From contig NC_090968.1 in assembly GCF_040807025.1 (NCBI RefSeq), positions 4,143,906-4,207,905 on the forward strand: DNA of 64,000 nt, read 5' to 3'. This stretch comes from Struthio camelus (lineage: Eukaryota > Chordata > Aves > Struthioniformes > Struthionidae). Positions 2,340 to 62,944 of this stretch are shown piece by piece (positions within the stretch are counted from its first letter, which is position 1; each line of letters opens with the position of its first letter). Under the pieces are notes generated by a model. It had not been told where the DNA came from and did not search any database. It saw nothing but the letters and a program-made list of their open reading frames with translations. Position numbers and translations under genes: made by a program.

Positions 2340-3222
2340 ATGGTTTTCCTCCTTGGAAATTCATCTGACTGCTCCAACTGCACCCACTCTGTGGGGCCTG
2401 TAAACATTTCAAAGGCCATTTTACTAGGCATTATTCTAGGGGGGCTGATTATTTTTGGGGTCTTGGGTAACATTCTGGTTATCCTCTCTGTAGCCTGCCA
2501 CAGACATCTTCAGAGCGTTACCCACTATTATATAATCAACCTGGCTGTAGCTGACCTCCTCTTGACTTCCACTGTCCTGCCCTTCTCAGCTACCATGGAG
2601 ATTTTGGGCTACTGGGCCTTTGGGAGAATCTTCTGCAACATCTGGGCAGCTGTTGATGTCCTTTGCTGCACTGCTTCCATTATGAGCCTGTGTATCATCT
2701 CGATAGACAGATACATCGGGGTGAGTTACCCACTGAGATATCCAAGTATAGTGACAGAAAAGAGGGGCCTCCTGGCTTTATTTTGTGTTTGGGCATTGTC
2801 TCTGGTGATATCAATTGGACCTCTTTTTGGGTGGAAGGAACCAGCACCAGAAGATGAGACCATCTGTCAAATCACTGAAGAGCCCGGCTACGTGCTCTTC
2901 TCTGCTCTAGGCTCCTTCTACCTCCCCTTGACTATTATCTTGGTGATGTACTGCCGCGTGTATGTAGTGGCCAAAAGGGAAAACAAAGGCCTGACTTCTG
3001 GCCTGAAGACTGAGAAATCTCATTCTGAAGAAGTGACTCTACGGATCCATCGTAAAAACGCTCCTGAAGCAAGTAGATCTTCATCCAACTCCAAGAGCAA
3101 ACATCATTTCTCAGTGCGTCTCCTCAAATTCTCCAGGGAAAAGAAAGCTGCCAAGACCCTGGGAATAGTTGTGGGATGCTTCGTTTTGTGCTGGCTTCCA
3201 TTTTTTGTAGTAATGCCTATTG
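2340..3222 (+). CDS. ADRA1A: ADRA1A coding exon 1: alpha-1A adrenergic receptor, N-terminus to TM6
   Basis: This exon encodes residues 1-294 plus one base of the next codon. The product is a Gq-coupled plasma-membrane receptor for noradrenaline and adrenaline. The start at 2340 has a strong context (A at -3, G at +4) and opens MVFL like the mammalian protein. Three N-glycosylation sequons lie at N7, N13 and N22. Visible family residues are D106 in TM3 (amine binding), the C99/C176 disulphide pair, DRY at 123-125, S188 and S192 in TM5 (catechol contacts), and CWLP in TM6. The third intracellular loop is basic and serine-rich. The exon ends at the G of ATTG followed by GTAAGT, so reading on through the intron gives an artefactual stop at 3230. 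The intron at the end of TM6 is the conserved alpha-1 receptor position. Identification is very secure. Confidence 0.97.
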
Positions 3223-5100: not shown

Positions 5101-5160
5101 AATGAGGGGAAGTCATTCGGCCAAGCTCACACAGCAGGTTAGTGGCAGAAGTCTGATTTT
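5101..5160 (+). repeat. MIR/L2-like ancient repeat fragment
   Basis: The run GGCCAAGCTCACACAGCAGG followed by TTAGTGGCAGAA matches the typical 3' phrase of old amniote MIR/L2-type repeats (protein-free, 'AAGGTCACACAGCAAG' style). It is short and diverged. Confidence 0.5.
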
Positions 5161-7400
5161 TTCAGCTGTGCAGAGCAGCTCTCCCCACTCTGTTGCTGAA
5201 ATTAATGGGAGTTGTGGAGTTCACAGTACAGCCGGCTGGGGAACAAGAATTTTGTTGTACAAAATACCAGTTCTGCAGCTTTTTTTGCAATGGGACAAAC
5301 CTGTAAAGGGATCCATCAGCTGCTGCAGGTCATTTTAGTTACTGCAGGAGGCAGAGCCTTTGAGAATCAGACCCTGAATGAAGGGTACCCCATGAGACAG
5401 ATATTCTTAGGCTTTGGCACGCAAACCACTTCAGATGACTGGCAGGTGCTTGCTACTCTGTGCAGCAAATGTTCCCAGACTGAAGGTTTATTTGGCTGTG
5501 CTCTACAGCATCTTCAAGATCCCCACGTCTATTAACATCAACAATACTAGCTAAGAATTGAGGTAAAGCAGGATACACAGGCTTGTTACAGGGCTATGGG
5601 ATGAAATCTTTTGGGGTGGGGGCAGGAGTGACAGAAGCGTATCAAGGCCCTTGGGGATAAAGGCAATGCGTCCGTATCAGCAGATGTTGCTAACAGCCAG
5701 AGAAACAGCTTGAGTATCCCTGCCATAAGACAGTGTCTTAACTGAAAACAGTATGCAAAGTTGCCATAAAGATGGAGGGCTGCTTTGCAATCTGTGTGGG
5801 TAATAATGCTTTTCTTACCTTCTCTGATGGATGGAGTTTTCAGTCCAGGCAAAGGATGTGTCCAAATGCTTTATCTGCACGACAGCTGACAAAGATTTTC
5901 AGCCCAATACACCTTCTTTTCACTTGGCTTTGATGTTGTTTGTGGAGTGAGCCAGAGAATGATAATCCTGCTGCATGAAAATAAAAGCAGTTTTAAGATT
6001 TGTTCCTCGTTGCATCCTGGAGTGTAAACCCAACCTTCACAAAATTTCCTTAGAAAGAAAGTGTGTTAAAACAGCTCATTACCCAGCCGCGGAAGCGGTC
6101 AGGTTTTCATTTCTGAATGTGCTCTACTCTTTAGAGTTACAGATCCACTCCCAGTCTGTAGGTTTTCCTATAAAAAGCTTTGAACTCAACACGTCTTCAC
6201 AAGTTATTTGGGCTCTGACTTAGTAGGTTCTCTCAAATATGTCCCAACTAGATACGCAGTGTTCACATTCCCCTTATTAAATCTGATTTTCTCTAGATGA
6301 TGTAAGCTAGGAGGACTGGCAGGCAAGAGAGCTGCATTTCAGTTTTCCTACATTAGCCAGAACCTTACCACCACACTTTTTCAAATCAGCTATAAAATGA
6401 AAACCTGCTTCCCTTCACAGGGGTTTGACATTTTTCTAAAGTCAGAACTGGCTCCTGGAAGAACCTCCACATCAAGGAGCAGCAAGAGCAGGGCTGCTCC
6501 ACAAGGCAGGACAATCCAGGAGCCGGGGTGATAACAGCACAGGCAGCAACCATGCCCTCACCAAAAGGGTGTAGTCTTGCAATACCTAAACAAGGCAAGC
6601 AAAGGTGGCCAACTTCCACAGGTTCAGGTGACAGTCCAGTGATCATCAGACAAACGCAAAGCAACAGACCAAAATCTGCAGAGGACAAGCCTAGCCTCAG
6701 GACAGATCAGAACAGATTAAGGACAAGAGCCGGACCTTAAATGCAGCTCCCTGGCCAATGGGTGGAGGGTGCATGGGTGCAGGCCCCAACTGAGGCTGGT
6801 CAGGGCATTAAGGCCTGTTAGCGCACTCAGGGCCCTGACACTGCAATGCTGGAATAACAGCCCACTGCACACCCTGCGTCTTCCATTTCAGTTTGTCTTC
6901 TTCTTGCAATTGCTGGAAAGGGAGATGGACAGAAAAACAGACGGACAAGTACAGAGATAGATACTCAGAGCTGTACGCGTCTGGGAGTTCAGTGCATTTC
7001 CCCATGCATGGGACCAGCTTTCAAGGTGGATGAGGTTACAATTCACAGAGCAGATCTTTCCCTGGAATTGGAAGATGCTGGAGGCTACTCAAAGCATTTC
7101 TCGGAAGCTTCTTAATGACAAGAATGGTGCTAAGTTAGGACTGATGCTTTGCCTTAACAAATCCTCAGAAACAAACTCGCAGAGTTTTGTTAGCTGTGCA
7201 CTTCCTTTGGAAAACTAACTTAAATTTATCTGGTTGTAACTGGTGCTTTCCGACCCAGGAAGAAGGAAAAAAGGAAGAGCTCAGTCAGGAGGCTGAGGGA
7301 GAACATACAATGCAGAATGCTAAATTGGGGAAAGACAAGGAAGGCTTTTTAGCGTTTGTCAATCATTTTCATGATGAAGTGAGCAGAAAAAAGGATACTC

Positions 7401-7413
7401 GGGGGGGGGGGGG
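7401..7413 (+). repeat. G13 homopolymer
   Basis: Thirteen consecutive G residues in ADRA1A intron 1. Homopolymers of this length are prone to sequencing error and can form G-quadruplexes. Confidence 0.9.
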
Positions 7414-9555
7414 TATTTACATTTGTAGTAGAGTAGTATATTAGGCTTGTGAACTGGCATAAATGCTGTCAAGGGAATCCTCTAAGCCTGTCTACGTGCC
7501 AGTCTGCAGCTGGTTTCTAATAACTTTCTGTGGTTGTTCTTTCACTGGCAACAAGGAGAATAACTCTCTACTGTCACTAGAGGTGAACCAGAAAAGAACA
7601 GCGCATTTTGCTGTCTCTGCTATTGATGCAGTATCTCAAGATGTCAAAAGGAAGGGAGTAGGGACAGGCACCGAAGCCCTGTGTTTTCCTGTGACACTTG
7701 CATTGTTCCATGTATGCACTTGCTATATGCTTTAATGAGGTGGCTGATTTGGCTCTGGTGTCTTGCTTGGGCTTCAGAGACATGAGTGCATACACAGTCC
7801 ACTCATTTGCAAATGGAAAATCTTGTTTTGGAGCGTTTAAGTCAAAGCATAAGTCAAAGGTGAGCAGATGTGATGGAAAAATTTCAGCCATTTATATGCT
7901 ATCAGATAGAGAAATTCACCTACCTTAATCATGCTGGTTACGGTACTATTGACCTATCCTCCTTTATTCTGCAAGGCAGGGACCACGCATGGCTGATTTC
8001 TGGCTGGACTATCAAAGCTGATTTCCAAAGGCTGTACTTTAAGGACCCGGTCTGCCTTTTGCTACTGGGAAAAAACGTACCATTCCCTAGGCGTAGCTCG
8101 ATGGTCACTTGCTCTTTTCAGGATTACGTGAGCCTTGATTCAGTACGTTCCTGAAGACCTGAAACATGGTGTCCCACCGATTCGTAATCGAGTAAAGTAG
8201 CTGAACGAATTGGTGATATTAATAGCCATTTAAATTGCAACAAAAGATTTATAGAATCAGTTGCGTTATGTTTCGTGATTCATATGCAGTGTCTACAGCT
8301 TTCTTGCGTGAACTACTTGTCAGAGAGAAGGCATGTTCTTACCTTTAAAATATTCTTGCCTTGCCTTGTATAGTCACCACTTTCAAGTCCCTGGAATAAA
8401 TGAACCAAGAAGAATGTCATTTTCCACTCACTGTTAAACCTCATGGTGCTATTTAGAATTTGCTAGTGATTGAAAGGTAATGAATGATTCCCCCACCCCA
8501 CCCCCCCAGCAAATTTCAGGATTTGTCTTCAATTTGTATTCATAAAGGACAGATTTTCAGCTTCTGCTAAAGAATGTAATTCCACTGTTGCTAACCCTAA
8601 GGATTCCAGAATCACGACTAACAATCACGCAGTGACAAAATTGTGACAGAGACGGAATTAGACTGATCGTTTCAAACTATTCTGTGAGCCACCAGATTTT
8701 TGTTCTTTAAATAAAAGCTAAGACTTTGTTGTAAGAACATGACTCTGGGAGCTAGGGTTTTGGGAGGAATACCAAATATTTTTAAAATGCTAGCAGCAAG
8801 ATCCAGAATCATTCCACTGTAGTAACAGCACGGGAGCTAGAATTTCACCGACAATAAAGTGACTTGTAGATCAGTGGGCTTAGTCAAGATTTACAGGGGG
8901 AACGAAACCTCAGTTTACCTTGCAATGTTTTTATCAACTTTTTAAATCTGCAGCTGCACACAATGAATCTGGCAATAGTTGCCCAAGATGTTTGCTTTTT
9001 GCCAGAAGTATCTACTATAAGCGGGTACAATACAAAACAGAGCAGAAATTACGTCTGAAAAAATCCAAATGATCAGAGCATCATTCCTAGATTGACTCTT
9101 TCCTGTTATCTGTCCTTCCCACGCATCACCTTGTCTGAAGAAACATCCACACCGTACCAAGTGCTCCAGAGCTCTGAATTCAGGCCCTTGTGAATAAGAA
9201 CAACCTCTCTCTCCTCTTTCTGTGACTGTTTACTACAGCTCAGGGATATCTGAGGACAAAGTCACTCTTGTTTTCCCCTGGAAACAGCCACAATATTCTA
9301 GGCCCTAGGACAGGTACAGGGCTTCACAGATGCAGGCTTTCACCAGTCCTCGTTTTTATTCTCACCGAAACATAACTATACTGTTGCTCTGCATTTGTTA
9401 TGTTAATTGATTGTACAAAACCCAGAAGCATTTCCTAGTATTCAAGGGTTCTTTGATCCCACATTTGTTCCCACAGAAGATACTTCCCATAAGAAAGCAG
9501 CAGAGTGAGAGACAGCATATATGTAAGAGCACAGCTGTTGCATGTCTGCAGCAGT

Positions 9556-9602
9556 GTGTATATATATATATATGTGTGTGTGTACACATATATATATATA
9601 AA
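9556..9602. repeat. TA/TG compound microsatellite with inverted symmetry
   Basis: A (TA)n tract passes into (TG)n, then ACACA, then (TA)n again, so the two halves are self-complementary and could form a cruciform or hairpin. It lies in ADRA1A intron 1. Confidence 0.85.
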
Positions 9603-11806
9603 AATACAATTTCCGTGGGGTGTTTTCTGTTTGACCTGAGATGCAGTACAGAGTGCAGTCTCACGGAATAAAGTTCAGCACTAACATTGAGCTTGGGAAC
9701 ACAAGATGAAACATATTTAGCAACATTCACAGTGCAGACTGCCTCACAGGAGATCCAGCTCGCCTCTGGTATAGAATCGGCCTGTGTGAGGTAATCAGCG
9801 TTCCTTTGTGCTTCGTTCTCTGGGCCTTTAGGGCAGTTGCTCTGGAGTAGCTGCCACCTTCTAACTTGATCCCTTCAGGACCGACCCCACGGTTTGAGCT
9901 TTATGTTTGGCCTTTCTGTAAGCCACACTGCTATCCCCTTGGAATGACAACAGCTCTGTTTTCAGTTTGCTGTAATTCCAGAGGCATATTTCATCGGCAT
10001 TAGAGGTAAAAGATGGTTAGGATTTTTGCTGGACTGTTATGCAAGGTTTTAAGCTTGCACTTTTCCCAGTTCCTTCAGACACTTTCAGTCATCATAAAAT
10101 AACACTGGCAAATACTGTTCAGTTCTCTGCTCACAAAGTGCAGGGGTACTACTGTCCTCTCCCAAGCGGAGTCTACAAACGTTGTCTGCTAGGCACTGCG
10201 CACAGCTATTCATCGCAAGCTCTGAATATACAACCTTAACTGTTTTGCAGATTACTGCCAGTTCCTTAGCTCGTACGGGTACAGGCCTGACCTCATTCAT
10301 GCACTTACTCTGCACTGAGCAGCGCCAATGTAGCCATACTACCCTGCCTGCCTTTTCCTCTGCTCTGACTCAATCACCAGACTTGTGCCATACAACATAA
10401 AAGGGAGTAAAAAGCAGTGAACCTAACCTTGAGCATCATAACCTCATCTGTCTGTAATTATTTGCCTTCCCTGGGCTTTCAACCACAATCACCAGAGCTA
10501 TGAGATTTAATAGTGGGGCTGGATTTTATGAGCACTTTGAGGTCCATAGGACATAAAAACATCCAGGATCCTGCTCCTGTTCTGCTAACAGAGACGTTAC
10601 AGGGTTAAATAAGTAGCAGAAGCTTCCTTAGTTTAGGGGGCTTCTAAATCCCTGTGTGCTATCTATGCATGATGTAGTACTGATTTTTTAAGCAACCTAT
10701 AATCAAGCAACTCTGTAACTTCTGACTAGTGAGAAAACCAAATTACATCTTTGTGACCAAATTGGCACTTACTCAGCAGGAGATACATGGAAAACTTAAC
10801 TCTTAGCTCTGAAGAAACTTGAAGTTGGCAAACGTGAAAATAAATTGTGAGTGGGGAGAATGCAATCCTGACGTTTTCAGGGGTGAGTGATGAAATATTT
10901 AATGGCAAATGAACAGTACATTTTATTTTCATATAAAAAGCAACTGAATTGTGCTACTGCCACTTTTAGATAAACTTCAAACTTCCAAAAAAAAAAAAAA
11001 CAACAGGAATTCAAGCCTCATTTAGTCAATCTCCAATTTAAAGGCATTAAAAGATCAGTTTAAGTTTTCTTTACTGTTCTTTCAGCACAGACCGTAGGGA
11101 GACAGTGGAAGAGGAGGTCTCTAAACCGTGTTCAGTTTTGCCACTATTTAGCATTTTGTTCCCGACAAAGGACCAGAGCAGACATGAAGCCTTGTGAATA
11201 CGATGGAGAATTAGTTTTAAAAGGGAAAATATTTCACTTCACAACTGCTGCTCACTATCTGACCTCTATTAGAAGATGGCTGGATGATGGCAGCACTCCC
11301 TGGTCTATAATTACGCCTAGCCTACTAGTGAGAGAATTAGCAAAACTCCCTCTGGAGAATTAGGTGCTATTATAAATCTGCTTTCTCAGTCCTGACTGTT
11401 AGTGGGCAAGTGCCCAAATCCAAGTTGACACTAATTGGCAGCCACCAAGTGGTCAAGGACTGAACAGACATGGACTCTGAACTGCTCACGCCAAGGGAGG
11501 ATGAGCTGCGATAACAAAGCCGTTGCTTCGTCAGTGCTAAGAACACATTTTATTCCATGCACAATTGTCCACAGAACCAAGCAGCGCTTAGTAGCTCTTA
11601 GCCTTTCCTCATGCTACAGGGAGCTTGCTCACCTTGCCCAAACCCTGCATCTGCATGGTGACACTGCCAGTATGCAGGCAAGACCTGCACACCTTCCTTC
11701 CCTAAAAGGAGACACAGTGCAAGGAAAGAAGTAATTTGCTACGGGGGAGACATGCTGAAGAACTCTGCCAAGAGAATGCGTTCTCTGATTTCTTCTATGA
11801 GCAAAC

Positions 11807-11870
11807 TTTTTTTTTGAATTTTGAATTTTTTTGAATTTTGAAATTTTTTTTGAATTTTTTGAATTTTGAA
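11807..11870. repeat. GAATTTT minisatellite-like array
   Basis: Six or so imperfect copies of a T-rich unit containing GAATTTT, with T-tracts of varying length between the GAA steps. It lies in ADRA1A intron 1. It is probably a slippage-born simple repeat. Confidence 0.85.
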
Positions 11871-12239
11871 CTTGTCTGACTTAAACTACCAGCCACTGCC
11901 CATTTAGAGGTTTCAGCGCACTGAACAAACTGCTTTATCACCAGGCTTAGCAGCACTGTTTGAAAATAACTTCTACTTGCTACCAGATACATCAAACACT
12001 GGTATTAATCACAACCGCAACATCACAGACTATTAAAGAGCTGGAAAATTATATATATAATAGATATATAAAATAAGATTCTTAACCCAGGGAACCTGTG
12101 GAATATGGTATTTTCCCCCTTTTTCCAGATTTTCAGGTAGCCAACAGAAAAGATTAGGAAAAGTTCATGAACTATAGATACCCAGGTGTCTGCAATAGCT
12201 TTTCTTTGGCTAGCTGAATGCACAGGACAAATACTAACA

Positions 12240-12350
12240 TGTCAGTCATTCCTCACAACAGTCCTGCAAAGTACAGAAGGATTTTGCCCATTATACAGAG
12301 AAGATACAGAGGGTGAAATATTTTACCCATCCAATGCAGTAATTCAGTGG
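12240..12350 (+). repeat. MIR/L2-like ancient repeat fragment
   Basis: The order CTCACAACAGTCCTGCAAAG, then a TTTTGCCCATTATACAGA phrase, then GAAGATACAGAGGGTGAA resembles the conserved 3' part of old amniote MIR/L2-type repeats. Diverged; called by eye. Confidence 0.5.
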
Positions 12351-15300
12351 TTCGACGTTTTGACATGCTGAACTTGATTTACGTTGCTCTGGAAGTTGAT
12401 GATGTTTTCAGCTTACGTGAGAAGAGGGTCCAAACTATTTCTTCTTTGGTTTTACATCTACCTGTTACATACTGGGTCCACTGACTATCATTTCCAATCT
12501 CAGTCCTTTGAAGATGCTACTTGCAGTACTATTTTCCTATTGGTGTCAGTACTGTTTCCCTCACAGGACAGCATACAGTTTTAATTAAGCCTATAGATGG
12601 TGCTTTAGCTGGTGCAAATTTATGAAACACCACTGACTAGCATGACCAGATGCATGACAGAGTAGAGTTCCTGTCCTAAAGCTGAAGTTACGTCTACCAT
12701 GGTAATGAAAAAGGAAAATGTGCGATGGGGTCTACAGATGGCAAAGTTTGTATGCTGTTAAAATTGCTCCATATCCTTTTCCCTGACAGTGTGTTGTTCC
12801 AAGACACGAAATCTCTTAACTGATCAACCAAAAAAAGTTACATTAATAAATGAGCATGCAGATTCTCCTCACCCTCTCCCCACCCCCCCCCAAAAAAAAA
12901 AAAAAAAGAGAAAGAGAAAAATTCTGATGCTGGCTATTTTCTATTTTAACAGGGTTTGGCAAGGCTTTCCATATTAAGGTGAGCCAGAAGTTGCAGAAAT
13001 AGGAATTGTTATCGTTGTTTACCCATTACTACACTCAGCCTCGTAGACCTAAGCCTGTATTTGTTTCACACAGCTCCTAATGTTTTTATGCAAAATGTTT
13101 TCTTTCTTCTGCATGCTTTTCATCTTAAAAACTGGTCCGTGTTAAATTAATAGCGAAACTGCTCTACCTAGATGGCTTTGAGCAACACAGGAGCAGTCAT
13201 GGAGGCACTGAGACTTGTAGTTGATGCCCGAGCTGTAATTGGAATTGAAATCAGAGGTTCAGTTGCTTGAATACAAATAGCAAGCTCCTTTGGTATGTTC
13301 TGCATAGCCTTTGGGTATCCCAACTCAGTCTAATTTATGTGCAAAATAGTGGCTGCTCTAACATGTTCCAGATGGCCTGGGTCCTAAGGGACTTCTCCCA
13401 AGTCAAAGATAACTGGAACACTTCTCACCCTGCCACACCTCCTATTTCTTCCTTGACAGCAGCATGTCCTCTGGGCCCATCAGTTCCACTCAGAGATTTG
13501 CTGCCACGGCAAGACGACATTGCTTCACGTTTCACAGCAGAGACCATGTTCAGCAGAAGCAGAATGAGCAAGTCATTAATCACGCTGCACTATTTGTGTC
13601 GCTGGTTCAGGCAGTATTTTGATATATTCTCACACAGGCAAAAACACCCTGAAAATTCCTCTCTGGCTTTTACCGCTTGAAAGCATTTTCTGCACTCTCT
13701 GCAGCTATGTTTGACAAAGATGGGAAGAAAAAAGCAACCCCAAATTCAGCAGCTCGCAGAGTTAAATTAGAAGTCCCTCTGACTGCACTATCAGCTTTTC
13801 CTAAATCAGGGGAGGTCCAGCTAACAGATCAAGCCCTGTAATACTTAGAATCTGCTTACAAACAGAAACAGTAGAGGATGATGAACGTATCGATGCCTTA
13901 ATCTTCCACAGTATTTCTTCCAATGCAGACATGCTTATAATTTTGTGGAGGAGGCAGGAAGACAAGCATATGTCAGTGCAAAATGTTCTATTCATTATAA
14001 ACTTGACTATGAAGCCTAAAACAAGCCAGTTACATTTTCTGGGAAATTAATAGTGCATCGTATGCCCGTGATAGGCTATCCAAACTAATTACTGACTTTT
14101 GGAATGATAAAATCACTTTTTTTTGAGGAAGGCAGGCAATGAAAGTAAGGAACAGCTTTTCCCTTGACAACATACAGGAAATTTTTTTTTCTTTTTTTGA
14201 TCCTGGAGGACGTTTTGAAAAATTGGTCCTAGAAGTACTGTTGCTACTTATTCCCACCACAATATCCCATGGAGTTCAGTTTTCTGTTTCATTCACATTC
14301 AGACAATACTGCTTTTATTTCTAAGCAAAGAGAAGAACCAAATAAGAGAACTACAAGATCTTGTCGCAATGGCTGCTTTCCAGTGTCATTCAGGAAGCAA
14401 GTGCAACAAATTTCTGAACAATTCTCCATAAGCAACAGCCTGGACTCTTTGGTATCCTAACTACATCTGTGTAGCTTTATAACAACATGTAAATCTCGTA
14501 AGCGTTTACTGGCATGCTATTCAAATCACTTGAAGTTAAGCACTTGCTTTTACAAGCATAACGGGCTCGTATTGCAGTTAAATGACTGGATTTACAAAAA
14601 ACGTTCCCAATGGTTGGTGGTGGAGAAGAACACAAACAGGTTCTCTGGGAAGGCTGTAGCATCTCCGCAAGGTTTTTAAGGTTTGAAGGTTTTTAATAGC
14701 AGCTTCAGCAAGTCCTTCCCAAGAGCGCGATACACTGAGCTGATCCTACTTTCAGACAGGAGAAGCACAAGATGAATTTCTGCAATCACTCCAAGCCTGT
14801 ATTTCATGACTCTAGATTCTTATGTTATCTAAATTTAGTTTGTGTAAGTCTATTCCATTTTCAAACCCTTAGAAAAAAGAGGTGCCATGTTCTTTAGTCA
14901 TCTTTTCAACATTGGCATGCTCCACTCCATATGAGACAATTAAGAAGGGCATCAATATGTGAAGAGAGGAACATCTGCCAAAATTTGACTTTTTCGCAAT
15001 TATCAAAAATGATCTCCTGTCATTGGAACAGACCCAGAATAAAGTTTCTGCAGTTTTTCAGTACATTATTTTTAATGCACATTCATGAAACAGTTTTCCA
15101 CCAAATAAAAACCAAAGAACAAGATTTTAAGTCAGCAGATACCTTCTGTAATTGAATTCCATGTTATCAATCATATATTGTAATCTACTTTAAAAGAAAA
15201 GGACATTAGTAATGCTATTTCATTTTCAATTGACATGGTCACTTGCAGCTGGCTGTTGCTGTACCAAGACACTGAGGAAAAATAAAGGTGCTATTTCTGC

Positions 15301-16097
15301 CTGTGTCATTGATTTGCTCAATAACCTTTCTGGAATAATTTTTTGTACGTTATCCTGCAATTTATAGAATAAAAAGGCTCACAGTACTTTCCTTACTAAT
15401 AAGTCATCTAGCTCTTCCCTTTTAGATTGTTTCCGTGGGAGACAACCTCGCAAACATACACCAGTTTCCTTGAGTGGCTGCCCATGAGACCTGATCCAGT
15501 GCTCATTGAAGAAAGAAGGCACTTTTCCTTTAACGTATCTGAATTTTGGATGCATTCCATGAGGCAGCAAAAATGTGGGAAATTAAGTTTTTCATAAGGT
15601 TTCAAGGGAAACTGAGCACCCAGTACTTTATCATCTTGTAAGACTCTTAGCTGGAGCACGGTCAACCCAGTAATTCTCCTTTTTACCTACTCTGACTCCT
15701 GACATGGTAATTTTCTTGCCATTTCAAATCCTTTTTGATGACCGCCTTGATATGATTGTTATTGGCTAAGTAATCTTAAGTTAGAGGTCCTGGAGGAAGA
15801 AATTTCCCTTTTTCACTTGATATCATGCCTCTTGCTTGGCTCTCTGGCTGTAAGTGGGAAAATTCAATGCTCATATAATAAAACAGATGTCTCGTATTGA
15901 TCTCTGATATAATATCCTGCAACCGTACAACACCATACCTTCTGAAAGACTCGTTCCTGAAAGAATTAGGCTTTGAGTCATCAATTTCCCAAGACAGAAC
16001 TGCATCTTATTTATTTTTTCCAGCGTTCAAATTTCTTTCATTACCCACAATTGCTCATTGCCTTTGCCTTAACAATCTGTGTTATTTTCCATTTTAG

Positions 16098-16618
16098 GTT
16101 CTTTCTTTCCTGCAATCAAACCCCCGGACACGCTTTTTAAAATAACATTTTGGCTTGGCTATTTAAACAGCTGCATCAACCCCATAATCTACCCATGCTC
16201 AAGTCAAGAGTTTAAGAAAGCATTCCAGAATGTCCTGAGAGCCCAGTGTCTTCCAAGAAAGCAAACAGCGAAGAAGCAATCCCCAAGTTTCAACCTCAAC
16301 CATCCCGCTAGCCAAAGCACAGAGAGTCACAAAGGCGTGGTCCGTATCCCCGTTGGCTCAGGTGAAACCTTCTTTAGGATTTCCAAGTCCGATGGGGTCT
16401 GCGAATGGAAGATATTCTCCACTGTGCAAAGCATGCCTACAAAAAATGCAGTCTCTAAAGACAAGTCTAGCTGTACTGCTGCCAAAGTGAAAAGTAAAGG
16501 TTTCCTACAGGAATGCTGCTGTGCAGGCACTTCAGGGAATATTCTCCGAGAAAATCGTAAAGTGCCAACCATTAAAATACATACCATCTCCCTCAGTGAA
16601 AACGGGGAGGACGTCTAA
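16098..16618 (+). CDS. ADRA1A: ADRA1A coding exon 2: TM7 and C-terminal tail
   Basis: This exon completes the receptor (residues 294-467, stop TAA at 16616-16618). Joining to exon 1 restores the PIGSFFP run at the TM6/extracellular loop 3 boundary. TM7 contains the NPxxY motif (NPIIY), followed by the helix-8 segment SQEFKKAF. The cytoplasmic tail is rich in Ser, Thr and Lys and keeps the family phrases [22 protein letters not shown] and [11 protein letters not shown], ending in DV where human ends in EV. The total of 467 aa compares with 466 in human. Mammals make tail variants from further alternative exons downstream; I could not recognise any such exon here. Confidence 0.97.
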
Positions 16619-20351: not shown

Positions 20352-23300
20352 AAAACACGCTAGCAGTACAACAGAATCCCTATCAGCCTGCCAGCTGTCA
20401 CTGCAGGTAAAATCCTTCTAGGATTAGGGCTCTGTTTTATGAAGTACTGTAAGATAACAGGAGATAGCCAGGGAGTTTACCAAATCTACAGAAGGGTAGT
20501 AAAAACACAGTGGAGCATGCTGATTTGCCCTCAAAGTTGCATCCACTGAACTGCACTGATCTTTTGATTGATGTGTCCTGAACGAAACCTTGAGGGGAAC
20601 GTGTGGCATCCCACTGTTCGCTCCATTGAGAGCAAAGGCTAAGATCTCATCTCCATTTTGAATGGAGCAGACCATCTCTACTGTGAGGTGTAGAGAGCTA
20701 CCAGCGTTTAGTAGTTAGCTGGCTTCTGATTTACACTGGTTGAATCTAAGTAAATCATCCATCTGTTTTCTTCCAGGAGCAGGAACAGGTCAGTATTCCA
20801 GTTTCCAGGGTTACCCCGGGATTTAATGTTCATTCAGATTTAGTGTCTTAATTTTAAGGCTTTACATATTCTGCAACATTATTCAAATCCTAAATACTCT
20901 AAGGTTTTCCCATTGCCCAAATAAATGTCTGCTTGCTTTTTTTTTTTTTTTTGGAGTTTTACTCTGCCAAGTCCAAGGATAAATTACACATTGTGTAAAA
21001 ATAGTATTGTCCTTTGCCAGGCTTTAACATCTTGAAAATCCATAGCATTGAGAAAAGATTAAATGAGAAATACTTCTTGCTTTTCTACTCCTCAGACTCA
21101 GTAAGTGGATTTCACTGAGCTTTGCCAGTCTTATCAGCAAAACCCATCCACCTGACTTCTGTTTCATGAAAGAAACAAGATGAAGGACTTCAGTATCATA
21201 TACCAACTGAAGTCAGTTAAAAAAATCTCATTGCTTTATTGAAGCAGAAGTTACTTAGTTCTAGCTATGTGTGTTAGCATCATGATAACTAATGCTCATG
21301 TATGAATGAGGTTTTATTATAAACTCAATTTGAAAATAAAGATATGAGGCAGGGACCCAATTCATTGATTTGCTCAAGGAAGATTTCATGGATTTTCAGT
21401 AGAATCCATGCTTGGTAATTAACTCAATATCCTACTCAGATATTTTTCCTCTTAAAATTGTTTGGATAAGGGAGACAATGCTGACAATCAACAGGCTGTT
21501 GATGCCAGTTTTCTGAATGATTGCTTCTGTCAGAGCTAAAGAGGAAAGCCAGTGAGCCTTCAAGACGCTGCACTAAAAGCTCAAAGCATATTTGGAACCT
21601 CCACAATGCAGCGTCATTGTTTGCCAAGTGCTAGCAAGAAAAGGCATCTAAGAGCTTGCAAGAGAACTATCATGAGGCAGGTTTGTATAAGCTGCTGTCT
21701 TTTCTGCATTAGTCATGCCTATTTCCAGTCATCCTTCTGCACAGAACCTTCAAATCTCACTAGCGTATTGGCCTTTAACTTATTTTCCCAACAAGCCCAG
21801 TAACCAAGCATGAATCTTCATTCTGTTTCTTGCCTAATTATAATGAGACTCAGCATACTCAGGGGAGAAGAGTAGGCTGTCTGGCCAAACTAATCCCTTC
21901 TTTCCTATCATTGCACATAAGTGAACTAAACCTTCTCCATCTATAGAAGGGAGCTAATCCATAAACATAATCAACTACTTTCTGAAGGTATTTGCAAGCA
22001 GATTGTTTAATATATGACAGTATTATGAAAATCCAAGGCACTAGGAGAGAGTTTTAGTGCATTAAAATAAAGATCTTCCATCCAGTTTGATAAATGTAAT
22101 TGAATCACTTATTTCCCAAGGGAAGATTAAGCATTCGTATTAAAGATTCAAGCAAAATGTCATGCCTTCTATGTAAAGTGTGCTGCATATTTCTCATACT
22201 GGCAGAGGAGGAGAAAAATAGCAAGTATGAGCTATGGGGAAGTGAACTGCTAAAGAGAAGAGCTATATATTGCAGTCAACTATCACATATGAACTGCAAG
22301 GTGCGTTATTTCTATGACACCCAAAAAAATCTAGCTAATGGGGATTACTATGTCTACTACACTCAGCTCAAACCCAGGCTGAAAATTATCTTCTCCTTTA
22401 GCACCATGAAACCTTCAGTTCCTTTTCAGAGTCAAAACAGCTTAGTGTTTACACTAAAAAGCAGAAATGAATTCCCAGTAATCATCGTCTCAGACTGAAT
22501 GCTATCTTCTCTACTGATCTGCGTTTCTACTGGAAAAGCTTAGTCCTTATAAACCAGTTTTCTTAAGTAAGAAAAATACAGCCAGCATTTCAGCAGTTCT
22601 CTGCTTAAAGTGATGCCACTGGCAAGCGAAATCTCAGCTAATGATCATATAGCATCATTATTTTGTGATACAGTATCTTTGCTGACTATTGCTGAATGCT
22701 CAGTTGTACTTACTTCTGTTGAGATGGTTGGAATTGTATGCAAGCTGGTGTGGTTTTTTGCTTACCCAGTTTTTTGGTTGCAGAAATGTTGTTTTTCTTC
22801 TGTCTGATGTAGCATTTTGCTTGCCTGCTGTACAACTTTGGCTGCCAATGTTTTTTAAAGATGTTTCTTGAAACAGGCACTGCATTTTCTGAATATGGTA
22901 TTTCAATGTCATTGGATTTTCTACATGCTGTTTTTATAGGCCCGATGTTTATTATGCAACATTTGAACAGTCATGCTGGTCATTTTCTTGAATGAAATTG
23001 AATGTATATGAAGTACTGTTAGATGAACAAATAAATTATTGGGGGGTGAGGGGGAAGTGCACTTTGGGACATGTGAGCTACAAATTTGTTTGCCTCTTTT
23101 CAAGAGAGCTTTCCCAAGTGGGAGCTTTCCCCTATTACAAACCCTTTCCTCTAGATCAGGTAGCAATTCCTACCAAGTCACACAGCACTTTACTGATGAT
23201 CTCAGTGGTTTCAGTGGGAGTAAGGTACAAAGTGAATAAAGGAATGACACCTCGATTTCTACTAGAGCAAGTTTAAATTGGCACATGATTCTAAGAAATT

Positions 23301-23394
23301 TGAAGGGACACAAGTTCTTGCCAGGCTTACAGGAATACACCATGTCCCACATGAAATCCAGCCCATTTCGCTGGGAAGATAGTGCTGAATGATT

Positions 23395-23400
23395 TTTATT
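23395..23400 (-). terminator. candidate poly(A) signal of the predicted minus-strand RNA
   Basis: AATAAA on the minus strand (TTTATT on plus). It is the first canonical hexamer met after the 29.04 kb promoter when reading leftward. About 40-60 nt past it, the minus strand is G/U-rich (ATGTGGGACATGGTGT), as expected of a downstream element. ATTAAA variants at about 23.84 kb and 24.81 kb are alternatives. Confidence 0.4.
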
Positions 23401-25530
23401 TTCCTGTGGTTTATGAAGGGATCAAGAGAGGGGAAGATAGACTTCCACAACAGTCAATATACTAGAACTTAGAAAACCCTACATGTTTTCACTGGAGAGA
23501 CCCTCGAAAGTTTCACAGTGTCTCAGGTAAGCTCTGGAGAAAAACCTGCAAGTGAAACAGTTGCTCTCTGCTTCTGTCATAGGACTGTTCTCTGACTTGG
23601 GATTAGAATTTACCCCCTGCCACTGTATTTGTTCATATTACAGGAGAGCCTGCCTGCAAGCCTCAGCTAAGGTCCAAGATTTGGTACCTAACTAACATAG
23701 GCCTTGCTCTAAGGAATTCCCATCTATCCTCCTCAATGAATATGGAAAATGTTGCAACTATAAGTAATGACTTACAAGATCAGAACGTCCTTGTGATCAC
23801 TAGATGTCCTGTGGGATAACGGAGGTAGAGCTATTTTTAATCAATGGTGGGAAAATGGTGCAGGAAAGGCTTGTTTTTGCTAACAAAATAAATGCAGTTC
23901 AATTAAGACAGACTGACAGTTCTACATAACCATAGGAGCGTGGTTATAAGCTCTTCCTCTGTTACCCAACAAATTCCCTTCTGTCCCACTGAACCTGTCA
24001 GGTGAGGGCAGGAAGGAAGTTAGTTTCTCACCTACTGGAGAAGAACTTTTTCTTAACTGGTCACCATTTTCTGACCTTAGGCAAGTCAACCCATTTACAC
24101 TGTTTAAATTCCCCTCTGTAGAAGGGATGCGATATTCCAACTGTGCCAGGAATGTTCAAGCTCATAAAAGTGCCATGAAGTATTTTGAAAAGCTGATATA
24201 TGGCAGGGGGTGGGGGGTGGAAAGCAAACTGTTGGCACATTTGTTTCATTATGACTACAGGAAACAGGCAAATTTTGCCAGTGCTTTCTAGAGTCAGCTT
24301 CCTCCCCTTTCCTGATGCTCCAATTGTCTTGCTAGACTCTTAGCAGCTCCTGCCCACTCAGTTTAAGGAATAAACTGCCCCCTTCACATCCTCTTTTCTG
24401 TAAGGGGCAACAGCCCAGGGTAGGATGGAGTTCTGCCTGCCTTGCTAATAGCAGCACAATGAGAAGAGCCACAAGGCTGCTGTTTGTGCCTGAGGTGTGA
24501 AGGGTGAAAAGTCAGCCATCGCTCAGGTCCTGACCATGGACAAGCATGGCCGAGTACTTCCCTGCACAGGAGTTCTGCTCCAGGCCATTTCTTAGGTTAT
24601 CCTGGGTTATTCCTCTGGCTTGAACTGTCAGGGAACAGACACACATGCAGGAGGGCCCCAGGAGATCCCCGATTTCCTCCAGAGTGACATCACTTAGAGA
24701 AAAAGGGACTATTTCCATTTTCCTTCTCTCAGTTCTACATATTAGTTTCAACAATATCCTTTTTTATAAAAGGAAGCCAGATGTCTGTGCTCAGCATTAC
24801 AAATAAAGTTTAATCAGTCCTTAGTTTCCCTTAGCTAGAAAACTTCTATTTTGTAGATGATCCTCCCACAAATCCCAGAGTTGCTCTGAATTTTGTTACT
24901 ACTGCAAAATTGTGTTATAGACACCACAGAAATTAAAATATCCTAAATACTATTCATGCAGTACACTCCATTCAAGTGTCTTAAGTGCTTTTAGAAGCAT
25001 CTCTCAATTAAGCCTTTCCAATAGGGAAATTGTGTTATACATATCCCCTTGAAGGCTCCCAAGCTATTTCATTAAGTTTAACTGACAGATAAACTACACA
25101 CAAAGGTAAAGTCAATCTCCACTCAGGCATGAAAGGAGGTACCTGTCTTAGTACCTGCGTAAACATTACACTGCAACTTTGATAAGAAAATGGCTATTTC
25201 CTTCACCAATTGGAACTCCAAGCAGCAGAAGATAATTGCTCAGTTATGAATTTGGCTAAAGTAACACTCAACAGCATCTTCCAGTCTGAATGCAGTATTT
25301 GATAACCCACATACTGATTATGCCAGTGTGACTGCTCCGTCTCCTAGAGGAAAAAAACTTGATTTCTGCTGATGCTCTCAGGAACCCACTGAGTCTTTAT
25401 AAATAAAGACTCAGGTCCAAGAGAAAGTTTTACTACAGGTTTAGTTATGGCCCGCTACAGGATAAAACCCATAGCTTCAACAGCTACTCAGTTCCCAGAG
25501 GAAGAAGGGTCACACCGATTCAGGCAAGGA

Positions 25531-25561
25531 AGCAACCTGGTAACATGGTAGCAACCTGGTA
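25531..25561. repeat. duplicated 12-mer
   Basis: AGCAACCTGGTA occurs at 25531-25542 and again at 25550-25561, inside the predicted minus-strand RNA. It is probably a small local duplication. Confidence 0.8.
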
Positions 25562-28500
25562 GCAGTCTTAATGCTGTTGCTTCTGCTCTGTTAATCTAAC
25601 TGCAGGCAAAGTCCAAAGCAGTCAGAAGCTTTACTGGGGTTCACATGCTTTTGCAGTAAGTGACATTGTGCTAGCAATTACAGAAGTAAGAGCTAGAAAA
25701 TATCAATTTTTCTGTTTATCAGATTGTTACTGGCCTAATGCTAGGATGGCTTTTACAATGAACTACTTCTGCTGTTCGCTGAAACAGCAGAGTGAGCAAA
25801 TACATGTTAGCTAATCCACTAGTTCACATAATGCAACTACCAGCCACCAGCCTTTATCAGAAAAAAAGTTGATTAGACTGAACTGCTTTGGGGAAATGCA
25901 AGTTCTCCCCCTGACATCAGGCCTAGAGCCATTATCCAGATCTAGCCTGTATGTGCAGTTACCATTGTCATTTGTATGTGAGCAGCTATATGGACAGGCT
26001 ACCAGTGATCTGTTACTGCTGGCTTAGCTTATCGCTGCATTCATTAGCTCTACAAGGGGAAAATTCCTAGACACAGTTAGAAGCAGCCCTGATAATCTAA
26101 TAGTCTTATCTCCCAAAAGAAGGAGAGCCCACAAAACGCGTCAGAGACATGTAAGAAATTGTCATAAACATTCCCAAGAGCCTAACTAAAAATCAAGTCT
26201 TTTACCTATGCACAATAGAAGAGAGGTAACAAATAAAGGATGGAATTTCAGTTGAGTGTTATACCCAAACATGCTTTGATACCAAAACACATCTTACAGC
26301 TTTTGCAGTTCATTACAATTTAAACATGCTGGGTTTTTCTGTGGCTTGCTTTTTTCTTCCCTAGAAAACACAGTACAAGATGGATAGAAGTTTTCTGCGT
26401 AAGCTGTTTTTTCATTTTCTTCTTGACTTATTTGGCAGAAGAAAAATACCTCCCATACCCAAAAAATGAAGGGCTGATCCTGTTTCCTCTCAACCCAATT
26501 AAAAATATATATATTGAAGCAGATCCAGCATTCCTTACCCATATCAAGCAGTCACCAAGGAATCCCATCAACTCCAGTGATACAGCTCCCATCAAGACAG
26601 CTCGCAGAACTGTTACCTTTGTGTCCTTATGTAGAGGAGAGAAAAGCAGTTACCAATACAGTAATATTACCAGCTCAAAGTTTTTCATTTGCTCTCATAA
26701 CTCCCTGGAGTAGTGGTATTTGTTTTAGATGAGTTTGCAGGAAACATTGGTGAATTTTTACAGATCCAACAATACTGAACTCAAGTCTTCACATGCCATA
26801 CTGCTGTCCCTCAACATACAGGAAAATGCCCCTCTAGAACAACATGAGGAAGAAGTCCTTCCATCACAAGGACAGACCAAGAGCATTCTATTACTTTTCA
26901 GTGTAAATTCATGCCTCATTCATACAGAGCATTAACACCACTTTCTAGACAAAGCCCTAAAGCCACAACTAACTCCACTGGGATTAACCACTGGGTGTAA
27001 AACTAAGCACTGGCTGATCCAGCCAGAATAGCAATTGGCACAAGCAAACAATTTTCAGAACCCACATGTTTTACTTTCCAGTTGATTTACACAAATCATC
27101 AAAACAAAGCTCTATGATGCTACTGCAAGTGGCAAAACAAGATTTAGGTCTCCTTTGCATAGCAAGATGTCAGGATATCAGTTCAGTTCCCATTCGTGGG
27201 CCTGCAGTCCTTTCCAATCAGGCCATCCAATTATCCTATTAGCTGCTGTGCATCTCCAAAGGGAGAAAACTGTTGATTGAAAAACTAGCTATTTCTTTAG
27301 TAGAATGGACAAACTGAAACAATGTAGTATCATGTTCACAAACACACATGCGCATCATGTATGTACACACACATCACATACCTATGACATACATATACAC
27401 GCAGATTCTAACCTTAGCCCAGAGCATCTTATTCAAAGCCTTTAAGGTTCCATAATTGAGACTGACTGCAAAAACCAGGGAAAAAAATATAGGCTCCAGC
27501 AAATAGAAAGTCAACAGCTGATCTAAAAATTTACTTTAGAAACTTGAAATGCCATGCAGAGGTTTTTTTTTTTTCAAACAGAAAAACCTGCCCTGAACTC
27601 ATTTACTGAAAGTATGTGATTTTGGAGATTCTCAGCTTGTGTCTCCACTCCTTCACATACATGCTTCAAAGTGAAAGGAAAAAAGGTTAGAGCACTTCAT
27701 TAAATAGCCCATTTGTTGCTTGTTTCCTCCAGCTAGCCAGTTATATGCTTAGATCTACACCTGGCTACTTGTTTTTCACTCCCTCCCCCTACATGCACAC
27801 CCGATTCTTCTTTTAGCAGCTGATACTATTATCACTCCTCATAGAGCTGGCCAAAGCTGTGGGAAAAGGGCTCTCTGCTACTCTGTACTGCTTCCTTATT
27901 GTGTGACAAGTCCTTTACTGACTGATGTTGAGCAGACATCGTTCCTACATGGCCACTTGTACAGCAGATAACTGCAAACACATGGTAGCTCAGCCAACAT
28001 AATACACTCTACTTTTAGCAAACCTCATTAATCTGAGCAGATCGTCCCACTAATACCACTCTGATTCAAAGCTCTGTAGACACTTGAATACTAGCTTAGA
28101 GCACACAGACAACAACAAATAACACAGGGCAACCATTACATGACCTCATGGTATCACTATTAGATCTCTTTCTACAGTGTCACTAGTAGTATCTGTGACA
28201 GTCCATGCCAGCAGTGCAAGAGCACAAGAAAATGCATATTAAATCACTGACTGCCACTTGCAGATTCTTTTGGATGACTAGCAGGTTGCCTTCCCGAGGT
28301 GTGAGAGGGCTTACAAGTGCCAGGCCACATGACAGCAAAACAGTTGATTGTAACAGGAAAGACACTAGAATTATACAAGTAAAATTAATCAATTATTAGC
28401 CATAAGAGTCACAAAATAACCCAACAGCATGCACCTAATAGTAAACAGATCTTATGTGTATATGCATATACACATTATATACACACCAGTACAAAACTAT

Positions 28501-29039
28501 ACAGAGTAACAATAGCAGAGTCAAAAGTATAACCAGAATAAAGAAAACCTTTATGAAGGAAAACAAGGCCACTGACTGGGATGATGCCTAGGCTCCACAG
28601 CTAGACCCCAAACCAAGAGTGAGCACAGCTGGCAGGGGGACCCCTGATGGGGGACACAGCATCCATGCACTGGGCCTGCTGGCAGGATCCCTGCAGGCAG
28701 GCTGGCCTCCCTTCCCTTCCCTTGACAGGGCGGCCAACAGCTCCCAAAGGCAGCTGGGAGACGCAGCACTCAACCCAGAGGCCTCCCAGAGCCCCTCGGT
28801 GCAGGGGCAAAGCAGGAGAGCCGGCCCCGGCGGTTACACTTAGGCTGTATGCGGTGCTGCTCCCAGCCGGCAGGGGCCGCGGGTCCGCGAAGGACCCCTC
28901 GGTGCTCCCGAACAGCAGCCCAGGCCGGCGGGAGCCTTCGCCGGCGCCCGGCCGCCGCGGTTACTCGGCACCTTCAGCCAGGAACGCGCCTCCGACAGGA
29001 GGCGGCCAGACAGCTCCAGTCAGAGCCACCTCAGCACCT

Positions 29040-29054
29040 CCCTCAGGGGGCGCC
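29040..29054 (+). promoter_or_regulatory. CTCF-like motif over the predicted start site
   Basis: The 15 bases at 29040-29054 carry the core CAGGGGGCGCC and match the CTCF consensus CCASYAGRKGGCRSY at 13 of 15 positions by hand alignment. It overlaps the predicted transcription start. Occupancy is not shown. Confidence 0.5.
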
Positions 29055-29064
29055 TGCCCGGGGG

Positions 29065-29072
29065 CTTTTATA
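29065..29072 (-). promoter_or_regulatory. TATA box (TATAAAAG)
   Basis: A consensus TATAAAAG on the minus strand, flanked by G/C-rich sequence as in strong TATA promoters. Initiation is predicted about 30 nt downstream, near 29043. Confidence 0.75.
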
Positions 29073-29116
29073 GCTGGGCCGATCGGGTACGCAGTCACCC
29101 ACGAGGACTAAACCGA

Positions 29117-29121
29117 CCAAT
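29117..29121 (+). promoter_or_regulatory. CCAAT box 1 (NF-Y type)
   Basis: CCAAT on plus, so ATTGG in the sense of the minus-strand transcript, about 75 nt upstream of the predicted start. This is the usual spacing for NF-Y and resembles the CCAAT box position in HSP70 promoters. Confidence 0.65.
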
Positions 29122-29146
29122 CAAAGCGTGCACTCCCGATCCGCCT

Positions 29147-29154
29147 ATTTGCAT
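29147..29154 (-). promoter_or_regulatory. octamer (ATGCAAAT)
   Basis: A perfect POU-factor octamer, ATGCAAAT on minus, about 105 nt upstream of the predicted start. Octamers occur in snRNA, histone H2B and some germline or pluripotency promoters. I saw no snRNA proximal element with it. Confidence 0.6.
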
Positions 29155-29193
29155 ACCCCTCGGAGCGGCAACAAGCACGCGCCTCAGCCAACC

Positions 29194-29206
29194 TTCTCGA
29201 AGGTTC
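29194..29206. promoter_or_regulatory. perfect three-unit heat shock element
   Basis: TTCTCGAAGGTTC matches TTCnnGAAnnTTC exactly, which is the HSF1 trimer site. A fourth, imperfect unit (CAA for GAA) precedes it in register at 29189-29191. It sits about 150 nt upstream of the predicted minus-strand start, beyond the CCAAT box and the octamer. In a CpG island with TATA and CCAAT boxes this is the layout of an inducible heat shock promoter. Confidence 0.75.
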
Positions 29207-29226
29207 CCTTGATGGACAGTCCGGAC

Positions 29227-29232
29227 CACGTG
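29227..29232. promoter_or_regulatory. E-box CACGTG
   Basis: Palindromic E-box read by MYC/MAX, USF, CLOCK/BMAL or TFE-family factors. A second copy lies at 29424-29429. Both are inside the CpG island upstream of the predicted minus-strand start. Confidence 0.5.
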
Positions 29233-29243
29233 ATCCGAGGGAG

Positions 29244-29248
29244 CCAAT
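29244..29248 (+). promoter_or_regulatory. CCAAT box 2
   Basis: A second CCAAT (GAGCCAATCCG context) about 200 nt upstream of the predicted start, in the same orientation as the first. Confidence 0.5.
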
Positions 29249-29269
29249 CCGCTCCCGAGTGCAGGGCGG

Positions 29270-29277
29270 GAACCTTC
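29270..29277. promoter_or_regulatory. second, two-unit heat shock element
   Basis: GAACCTTC fits GAAnnTTC, two units only. It lies 64 bp beyond the perfect element and could assist cooperative HSF1 binding. Confidence 0.45.
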
Positions 29278-29360
29278 GGGGGCGGTAGGGGCCGCGCTGG
29301 GGTCCCAGAAAGGGCGCGGGGAGCGGCAGGTCGCCTGTCAGCGGGTTCTCCCTTATATCC

Positions 29361-29373
29361 GGGGGGGGGGGGG
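29361..29373 (+). repeat. G13 homopolymer at island edge
   Basis: Thirteen G residues just upstream of the promoter motifs (relative to the minus-strand transcript). Possible G-quadruplex or nucleosome-excluding tract. Confidence 0.85.
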
Positions 29374-30970
29374 TTATTCGCCACAGTATCTAAAACCCTA
29401 ATATCCCCGCTCCTCATCAGCTCCACGTGCCCAAGCTCACGGAAAATACAGTCGGCCAGGGAAGCATCTAGGTCAAGGCAGGCTTAATTATACGTAAGGT
29501 GTATAGTGTTAGTCCCAACCCGTGTGGTGGAAAGGGGAGCTGACGGCTAGCAAATAACAAGCCGCACAGATGAGCGCCGCACTCGGCTTCTGTTCTGCAT
29601 TCGTGTTAACCTGCCCAGTAACAATAATTTAGAGGGGCAGAGCGTATATGAAGGCAGCAATACGCTCTCTGGCTAGTGGAACGGTTCCCACCCACGCATC
29701 CGTCCTGAACTCCCGAGCCTTTAACCATAACAGATCAGCTCCTCGGGGGTGAAAACTGGAAAAGTTCACTAGGAATAAATGAAATCCCCCTGTAGAATTT
29801 CGGCCCCACCAAGGCAGGCTCTGCTCTACTGCTCGTTTCTGTTTTACTGGGGGATTTCTTTATCTAGTTCTTTATCTGTTTAATAAACAGATAGTTCTTT
29901 TTTACATTAAAATTCCCATTGTGTTGTTTGGTGCTGACATTAGCTGAGGAGCTGGTGCCTGTTTCTTTACTGCTCTTTCTTTCCTCATTATAGCTGCTGA
30001 GGTGGAGGCAGCCAGCAGCAAATGCTAGCCCTGATGATAAGTTAGATTTTTGTTAACACTACCTACCCTCCGCAGTGATGCTTTTTTATCATCATATTGC
30101 TGCTGGAAATCACACTGAGCGAGTTTGAGATGAAATATTTACTATTTATTAGTGAATCAAGTAACGGCATCAATGTTTATTGGCCCCATGCCTCTTAAAC
30201 CGAATGTCCCATATGCTGGCAGCTCCCATGATTTATCCTTGAGAGAGACTCTGCTATCTGAACTCCAGCTCAGGGACTCCAAAACGCTACTTCAGTTTCA
30301 GGAATGTTCCGAGTTTCCCTTGAGAGTTATAAAAATCTCAAACTAATGGTGCTATATCCGGAGATGTAGTGGAGGAGGGGGCAGGCAGGAAGACTATCTC
30401 CAGTGAGTCTTAGTTTTTCAAAGCACTTCTTCCCTTAAACACATGTAAACCAAGTCTTTTGGTTACAGTGGTATTGTTAAACCCAAGGGTCGTGAACTAC
30501 CACGACCACCACCCCAAGGAAAAAAGCCCTCCTAACATTTTATTTAGTTATTTTCAATCCTGAAAATTAAGCAAATCCGCTGCCTAGGGAAGGGGAGGGA
30601 TCCTCTTTCAGTGGCTTTTACAGTTGAAGGAAGACTCGTCTGTCGATACGTAATACCTGGGCTCCAAAGAGTAACGTAAAGGTGATCTCACAGAGAGCTG
30701 TTCCCCCCTTCTCAAAACTGCTGTTTCTGGAGGAGATGTTGTGGAGCGCAGTGGGAAGACGAGCAACGCTGTAAGGAGCAACTTTTTCCTAAAACACACA
30801 AAAAAAACCTGTTGCTTTTTGTTTGCCTTCAAGCTTTTAAGTCCCCACACCCATCATGGATTCTTTGCCGAAACCATCCTTAACATCACATATAAAGCTA
30901 TCAGCCAGCCTCTAAGAAATACAGCTTCCTTAAAAATAGTGAGAGATCATTTGAAAGATGCATGGGCTTT

Positions 30971-46105: not shown

Positions 46106-46252
46106 TTCACTATTTTCTCAAAGAGAAAATATTCACTATTTTCTCTTTTCACTATTTTCTCTTTTCACTACTATCTATTCACTATTTTCTCTTTTCACTA
46201 TTTTCTCTTTTTTCACTATTCACTCATAGAGAATATATTCACTATTTTTCTC
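46106..46252. repeat. CACTATTTTCTCTTTT minisatellite
   Basis: Seven or more imperfect tandem copies of a unit of about 16 bp reading TTCACTATTTTCTCTT, with two copies bearing an inserted CAAAGAGAAAATA-type segment that is complementary to part of the unit. Open frames through it are repeat artefacts. Confidence 0.9.
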
Positions 46253-52167: not shown

Positions 52168-59260
<7,093 letters not shown>

Positions 59261-59267
59261 CTACTCA

Positions 59268-62944
<3,677 letters not shown>

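Follow-up and report, generated by a model that had tools for sequence, protein, structure and literature searches.

The 64-kb stretch of DNA analysed here (the window) contains, between the genes ADRA1A and DPYSL2, what is very probably a solo long terminal repeat (LTR) of an ancient endogenous retrovirus (ERV), with a heat-shock-type promoter in its U3 region and with this copy apparently kept as the promoter of a non-coding RNA. The original prediction had described an isolated CpG island with a leftward heat-shock-type promoter, and such an island is present. It spans about 28.7-29.8 kb (GC 0.51-0.71 and CpG observed/expected ratio, o/e, of 0.66-0.88 in 400-base windows), is the window's one strong CpG island, and includes a perfect heat-shock element (HSE), two CCAAT boxes, an octamer and a TATA box. 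The sole other CpG-rich 400-base window listed is 52201-52600 (GC 0.515, o/e 0.64). The placement between ADRA1A and DPYSL2 is likewise borne out by coding matches. The same prediction took the locus for a unique-sequence, non-satellite source of long non-coding RNA (lncRNA), and on this point it fails: a dispersed LTR with at least 41 copies accounts for the promoter and for the initial 850 bp of the transcript as proposed. The features, with positions in the window, are as follows.

29386..29700, no strand: flank upstream of the LTR and outside it, still CpG-rich (o/e 0.63 over 600 bp)
29386..29390, no strand: upstream copy of the 5-bp target-site duplication (GATAC on the minus strand), read directly
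28194..29385, minus strand: solo LTR of 1,192 bp with ends TGTGG...CACA, its boundaries common to other copies
29267..29277, minus strand: second, partial HSE-like site GAAGGTTC, weakly conserved (0.69, under the U3 mean of 0.76)
29244..29248, minus strand: distal CCAAT box (ATTGG on the minus strand)
29227..29232, minus strand: CACGTG E-box, read from the sequence and missing from some copies
29194..29206, minus strand: HSE of three perfect units, GAA..TTC..GAA, read from the sequence and first of 321 comb positions in U3
29147..29154, minus strand: octamer ATGCAAAT, from the sequence and copy comparison
29117..29121, minus strand: proximal CCAAT box (ATTGG on the minus strand)
29066..29072, minus strand: TATA box, TATAAAA
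29040..29045, minus strand: putative transcription start, placed by its spacing of about 25-30 bp from the TATA box
28550..28555, minus strand: CATAAA, a possible weak LTR poly(A) signal suggested by copy comparison
28189..28193, no strand: downstream copy of the target-site duplication (GATAC on the minus strand), read directly
23395..28188, minus strand: unique, apparently non-coding DNA (no genome match; coding checks), with a possible read-through transcript ending at AATAAA 23400-23395

Boundaries and copies of the LTR

All promoter boxes and the HSE sit in U3 of the solo LTR. A genome search with 28650-29450 found another 25 matches, almost all of them confined to about 29397-29032. Comparison with six copies taken with longer flanks brought out a second conserved block, whose end falls at about 28193-28204 in five of them. 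When 23300-28700 was used as the query, other loci matched only as far as about 28187-28203, and the remaining 4.8 kb gave zero matches elsewhere in the genome. The termini have the TG...CA form with short inverted ends, TGTGG...CACA in the window copy and similar sequences wherever the ends of other copies are intact. Both ends could be located in 17 copies, six of which (the window copy, C4a, C9, C2, C185d and C40) show an exact 5-bp target duplication, an outcome with a chance of about 1 in 1,024 per copy. The feature is almost certainly an LTR.

Three genome searches, merged, place the LTR at 40 or more loci besides the window copy, on 14 contigs, with 31 of the 40 outside contig C185. The total of at least 41 copies includes the window copy; a search with another copy scored 40 of 46 candidates. 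Every copy was picked up through its resemblance to the window copy or the copy L042, which favours conserved copies generally and not the HSE specifically. Among the 40 loci found (40 of 46 candidates scored), no pair of LTRs on the same strand 2.5-20 kb apart was seen, and the copies found therefore look like solo LTRs.

The LTR has multiplied on contig C185 (1.3 Mb), which holds nine loci (for example L034-L037, L039 and L040). The usual 3' end is missing in five of the six copies fetched from it (L034-L036, L039 and L040), where the sequence that replaces it presumably resembles a CR1 end. At G000:C1:99717134 (-) and 99717899 (+), two LTR pieces lie close by in inverted orientation. On G000:C29, four plus-strand pieces (1225251, 1808322, 2865005 and 2968737) have equal score and identity over 1.7 Mb, a pattern that resembles segmental duplication.

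Conservation of the heat-shock element

In the window copy three alternating nGAAn units (29206-29194) stand near the TATA box (29072), the arrangement expected of a heat-inducible promoter. Perfect three-unit HSEs are common, with four in the window and 15,849 in the genome, fewer than the 25,849 counted for the reversed control pattern; for this reason the HSE by itself is weak evidence. With its HSE, two CCAAT boxes, octamer and TATA box, the CpG-rich leftward unit has the composition of a real promoter.

Among 24 copies, the window copy included, all nine HSE letters are kept in 15, eight in six and seven in two, and the element was not located in one; four near-duplicates on C185, each with eight of nine letters, were excluded from this count. 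Across 21 copies, conservation is 0.91 for the nine letters of the HSE core, 0.58 for its spacers and 0.72 for U3, and the HSE ranks first among 321 positions of the same comb in U3, with a permutation P of 0.0004. The first 12 copies had given 0.93 for the core, 0.69 for six spacer and flanking positions and 0.76 for U3 (P 0.003). At least two groups of copies can be told apart. One (L050 and L066-L072) lacks the stretch between HSE and octamer and has the HSE form GAACCTTCTGGAA, from which L072 differs by one letter; the other has variable HSE spacers. By this comparison the HSE is a trait of the retroviral family and not of the window locus. Because the HSE core is conserved across copies, the retroviral element itself probably relied on heat-shock factor.

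Promoter use of the window copy and its possible transcript

For analysis of CpG decay the boundary between U3 and R was placed at 29040, and CpG sites were scored where at least two other copies carry CpG. In U3 the window copy has kept 18 ancestral CpGs, while 3 have decayed to TG/CA and 10 are otherwise changed; in the 3' part none is kept, 11 have decayed and 5 are otherwise changed. This contrast (Fisher 2.8e-6) makes it the most polarised of 12 copies, top in U3 retention and bottom in 3' retention. L043 shows a contrast in the same direction (P 0.0018) and L047 in the opposite one (P 0.023). CpG richness extends into the upstream flank outside the LTR, where o/e is 0.63 for the window copy (600 bp), 0.73 for L042 and 1.03 for L049 (193 bp), and 0.00-0.50 for the remaining copies with more than 150 flank bases. 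From 450 to 900 bp past the TATA box, the window copy has a single CpG (o/e 0.06). Its retained CpGs are not a matter of youth, since its non-CpG branch is long, at 0.170 (0.06-0.33 in the 12 copies). We read the pattern as the mark of a promoter kept free of methylation, with methylated DNA behind it. With CpGs surviving in U3 and lost from the 3' part, the window copy seems to have been used as a promoter; from this we infer promoter activity, which is likely either present now or to have lasted for long in the past.

Copy L042 (G000:C6:8486900-8494200, LTR at about 290-1486) has 112 CpGs at an o/e of 0.98, a CpG-rich upstream flank and a strong downstream G+T excess of 0.128, and is another candidate for a retained promoter.

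Downstream of the window LTR, the absence of protein coding potential claimed by the original prediction holds. The longest minus-strand ATG open reading frame (ORF) in 29043-23380 has 82 codons' worth of product (82 aa), none of the ten minus-strand ORFs scanned (a part of the ORFs) has a Pfam match over cut-off, and the window has no match to Rfam at gathering score or in a tRNA search. A hidden protein gene was rejected on these results. The further claim, that no sense-strand poly(A) signal occurs until 23.4 kb, is right for AATAAA, which first appears on the minus strand at 23400-23395 and is counted 0 times on that strand against 6 on the plus strand over 29040-23403. It does not extend to ATTAAA, which starts at 24814 and 23841, or CATAAA, which starts at 28555, and the absence of AATAAA has a P of about 0.12 in a first-order simulation. 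The strong strand asymmetry also claimed is there in that the minus-strand G+T excess over the proposed transcript is the strongest in the window; once the LTR is left out, some controls equal it, as described below. In the 2.2-kb downstream flanks of the 12 copies (one of only 458 bases), asymmetry ranges from -0.035 to 0.128, with the window at 0.108. A correlation between CpG retention and downstream asymmetry, hinted at by seven copies (L043 being a misfit, with 58% of CpGs kept and little asymmetry), was unsupported by five more and was dropped; asymmetry and CpGs kept in added copies are 0.107 and 27% for L050, -0.002 and 53% for L049, and -0.035 and 39% for L047. Asymmetry and the lack of AATAAA are only suggestive as signs of transcription. 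Read-through as far as 23.4 kb and a short RNA of the LTR are equally possible.

The explanation we propose is that an ancient ERV inserted here, with a 5-bp target duplication GATAC, and that its U3 brought a heat-shock-type promoter made up of HSE, CCAAT boxes, octamer and TATA box. The internal part would have been lost, presumably through recombination between the LTRs, while the promoter of the window copy may have stayed unmethylated in the germ line. RNA would probably still start at about 29043 and run leftward through the LTR, possibly as far as the AATAAA at 23.4 kb. That one RNA spans the full 5.6 kb or so is doubtful. As to a response of the window copy to heat, the balance is close and tilts slightly towards there being none.

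Several observations weigh against parts of this explanation. Eleven of the 17 copies with both ends located lack an exact 5-bp duplication there. Inexact duplications are those of C4b, C8/L048 (four of five letters), C16/L050 and all eight both-ended copies among ten added later, which are mostly more diverged (66-81% identity to the query); that of L067 becomes exact if one end is shifted by one base. That only 6 of the 17 duplications are exact leaves our estimates for the LTR, its activity, the heat response and the transcript unchanged. A 5-bp target duplication points to class III (ERV-L), and the element is perhaps ERV-L-like, an assignment drawn from duplication length and this general rule, with no internal region found. 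The next non-overlapping comb in U3 is conserved at 0.90, close to the 0.91 of the HSE (21 copies), and some stretches of 13 bases in R and in the 3' part reach 0.89-0.90 (12 copies). Conservation of the HSE may also stem from selection on the retrovirus and not on the window copy. Taken over the entire LTR, CpG retention is unremarkable, at 0.44 among values of 0.08-0.76 in the 12 copies, and was rejected as proof of use, the regional pattern alone being unusual. L042 retains its CpGs more evenly along its length, and the window U3 does not evolve more slowly outside CpG (mean divergence 0.218, second highest of nine). Without the LTR the downstream asymmetry is 0.072; of 26 control stretches of 4 kb, 4 are at least as asymmetric, and GC is 0.61-0.72 in three of these. 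Asymmetry was thus set aside as proof of transcription.

Among other explanations, the one that survives best has the LTR provide promoter and first exon for a short RNA, whose end lies within the LTR or which is joined by splicing to exons on the left; this is a serious possibility, short of an even chance. CATAAA at 28555 could end such an RNA, and at that site eight other copies have TATAAA in three (L031, L044 and L046), AATAAA in one (L043) and other variants in the rest. Candidate splice donors exist, for example at 27381 and 24031, yet donors scoring at least 8 number two on the sense strand and three on the other strand, by an approximate matrix. A parallel for this arrangement is the chicken lnc-LTR5B, an ERV-L LTR-derived lncRNA of 590 nt studied in virus infection, whose promoter and first exon are described as lying mostly within its LTR (PMC8667585).

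The LTR might instead be dead, its boxes retroviral relics and its CpG island the product of local GC-biased conversion on a small chromosome. Other copies do carry the same boxes, CpG retention does range widely among copies (0.08-0.76), the contig is small (8.0 Mb) and the downstream asymmetry is unexceptional (4 of 26 controls). Local GC bias alone accounts poorly for a single insertion that kept 18 of 21 U3 CpGs yet lost all 11 scored in its 3' part, and for CpG richness in the unrelated upstream flank, and we consider a dead LTR unlikely. A unique, locus-born gene for a heat-inducible 5.6-kb lncRNA would fit the promoter boxes, the lack of coding signs and the AATAAA at 23.4 kb, but is virtually untenable now that promoter and first 850 bp prove to be a dispersed LTR with a target duplication, which refutes a unique origin. 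Duplication of an HSP70-family promoter was considered and rejected: HSPA2- and HSPA8-like promoters share the boxes, but no HSP70 locus is among the LTR matches listed.

Comparison with known systems and locus setting

In the same genome, a promoter similar to that of the solo LTR is found at locus L020, which we take to be HSPA8 and which combines octamer, CCAAT, HSE and TATA in one promoter; it belongs to a host gene, and the likeness is one of boxes with no alignment claimed. The lncRNA lnc-LTR5B resembles the proposed case as a bird LTR that gives promoter and first exon to a non-coding RNA; it differs in its length of 590 nt and in that its description, in the part available, does not mention an HSE, and the two are likened by description and not by sequence (PMC8667585). 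ONSEN, a heat-activated copia LTR retrotransposon of Arabidopsis, is reported to be transcribed in the host heat response and to be able to render its neighbours heat-responsive (PMC6927752). It is a plant copia element that makes new insertions, whereas the LTR family of the window is retroviral, old and from a bird-like genome, found as solo copies only and with a putative heat response. In Caenorhabditis, the same source describes, in the parts available, Helitrons that carry HSEs and so spread them through the genome; these are DNA transposons of nematodes, for which HSF-1 data exist (PMC6927752). Human satellite III stress RNAs are likewise heat-activated non-coding RNAs from repeats, with satellite arrays in place of an LTR, the comparison being by description only and from part of the source (PMC7216065). 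A review of vertebrate transposons and stress discusses Alu RNA for heat shock, and in the available portion of its text the term HSF does not occur (PMC7922186).

If heat-responsive, the LTR family would parallel ONSEN in plants and Helitrons in worms: a vertebrate retrovirus would clearly have made use of the heat-shock response and, in spreading, have distributed stress promoters ready for use. We put forward, as a tentative idea and in its full form a rather improbable one, that a bird ERV family with host heat-shock factor as its trigger seeded heat-shock promoters, and that one solo copy or more, including that between ADRA1A and DPYSL2, stayed active in the germ line as a heat-responsive promoter of a non-coding RNA. 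The idea lends itself to direct testing, since a single genome offers dozens of copies in which the HSE is either intact or broken. The locus also illustrates how a CpG-island "lncRNA promoter" can be unmasked as an LTR. In the literature, which was covered in part, nothing was found on bird LTRs that carry HSEs or on heat induction of an RNA between ADRA1A and DPYSL2. Within that coverage, two things seem new: that a family of vertebrate retroviral LTRs conserves an HSE within a promoter built like those of heat-shock genes, and that one of its copies shows a CpG pattern focused on the promoter.

The genome measures 1.45 Gb, and the window is part of its 8.0-Mb contig C27. The ADRA1A coding sequence (2340-16615, plus strand) and the coding matches to DPYSL2 (52171-63068, minus strand) are arranged tail to tail, with the LTR between them. 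A reptile host with temperature-sensitive development, raised as a possibility by the original prediction, is at odds with what looks like a karyotype of bird type, with C1 at 225 Mb, small chromosomes, and HSP70-family genes on contigs that appear to fit the chicken map. HSP70-family genes comprise an HSPA2-like single-exon gene on C5, an HSPA8-like gene on C22 and an HSPA5-like gene on C20, with further members on C1, C4 and C13; these gene names and the fit of their contigs to the chicken map are our assumption. Two contigs whose numbers follow those of the small chromosomes, C40 (70 Mb) and C41 (90 Mb), may be sex chromosomes of the large kind that ratites have. Separate from the HSPA2- and HSPA8-like genes, locus L010 (G000:C23:6475628-6480349) has an HSP70-like frame, open over 668 aa, with an unusual N-terminus. 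Within the window, 46132-46211 is a tandem repeat of about five copies of a 16-bp unit.

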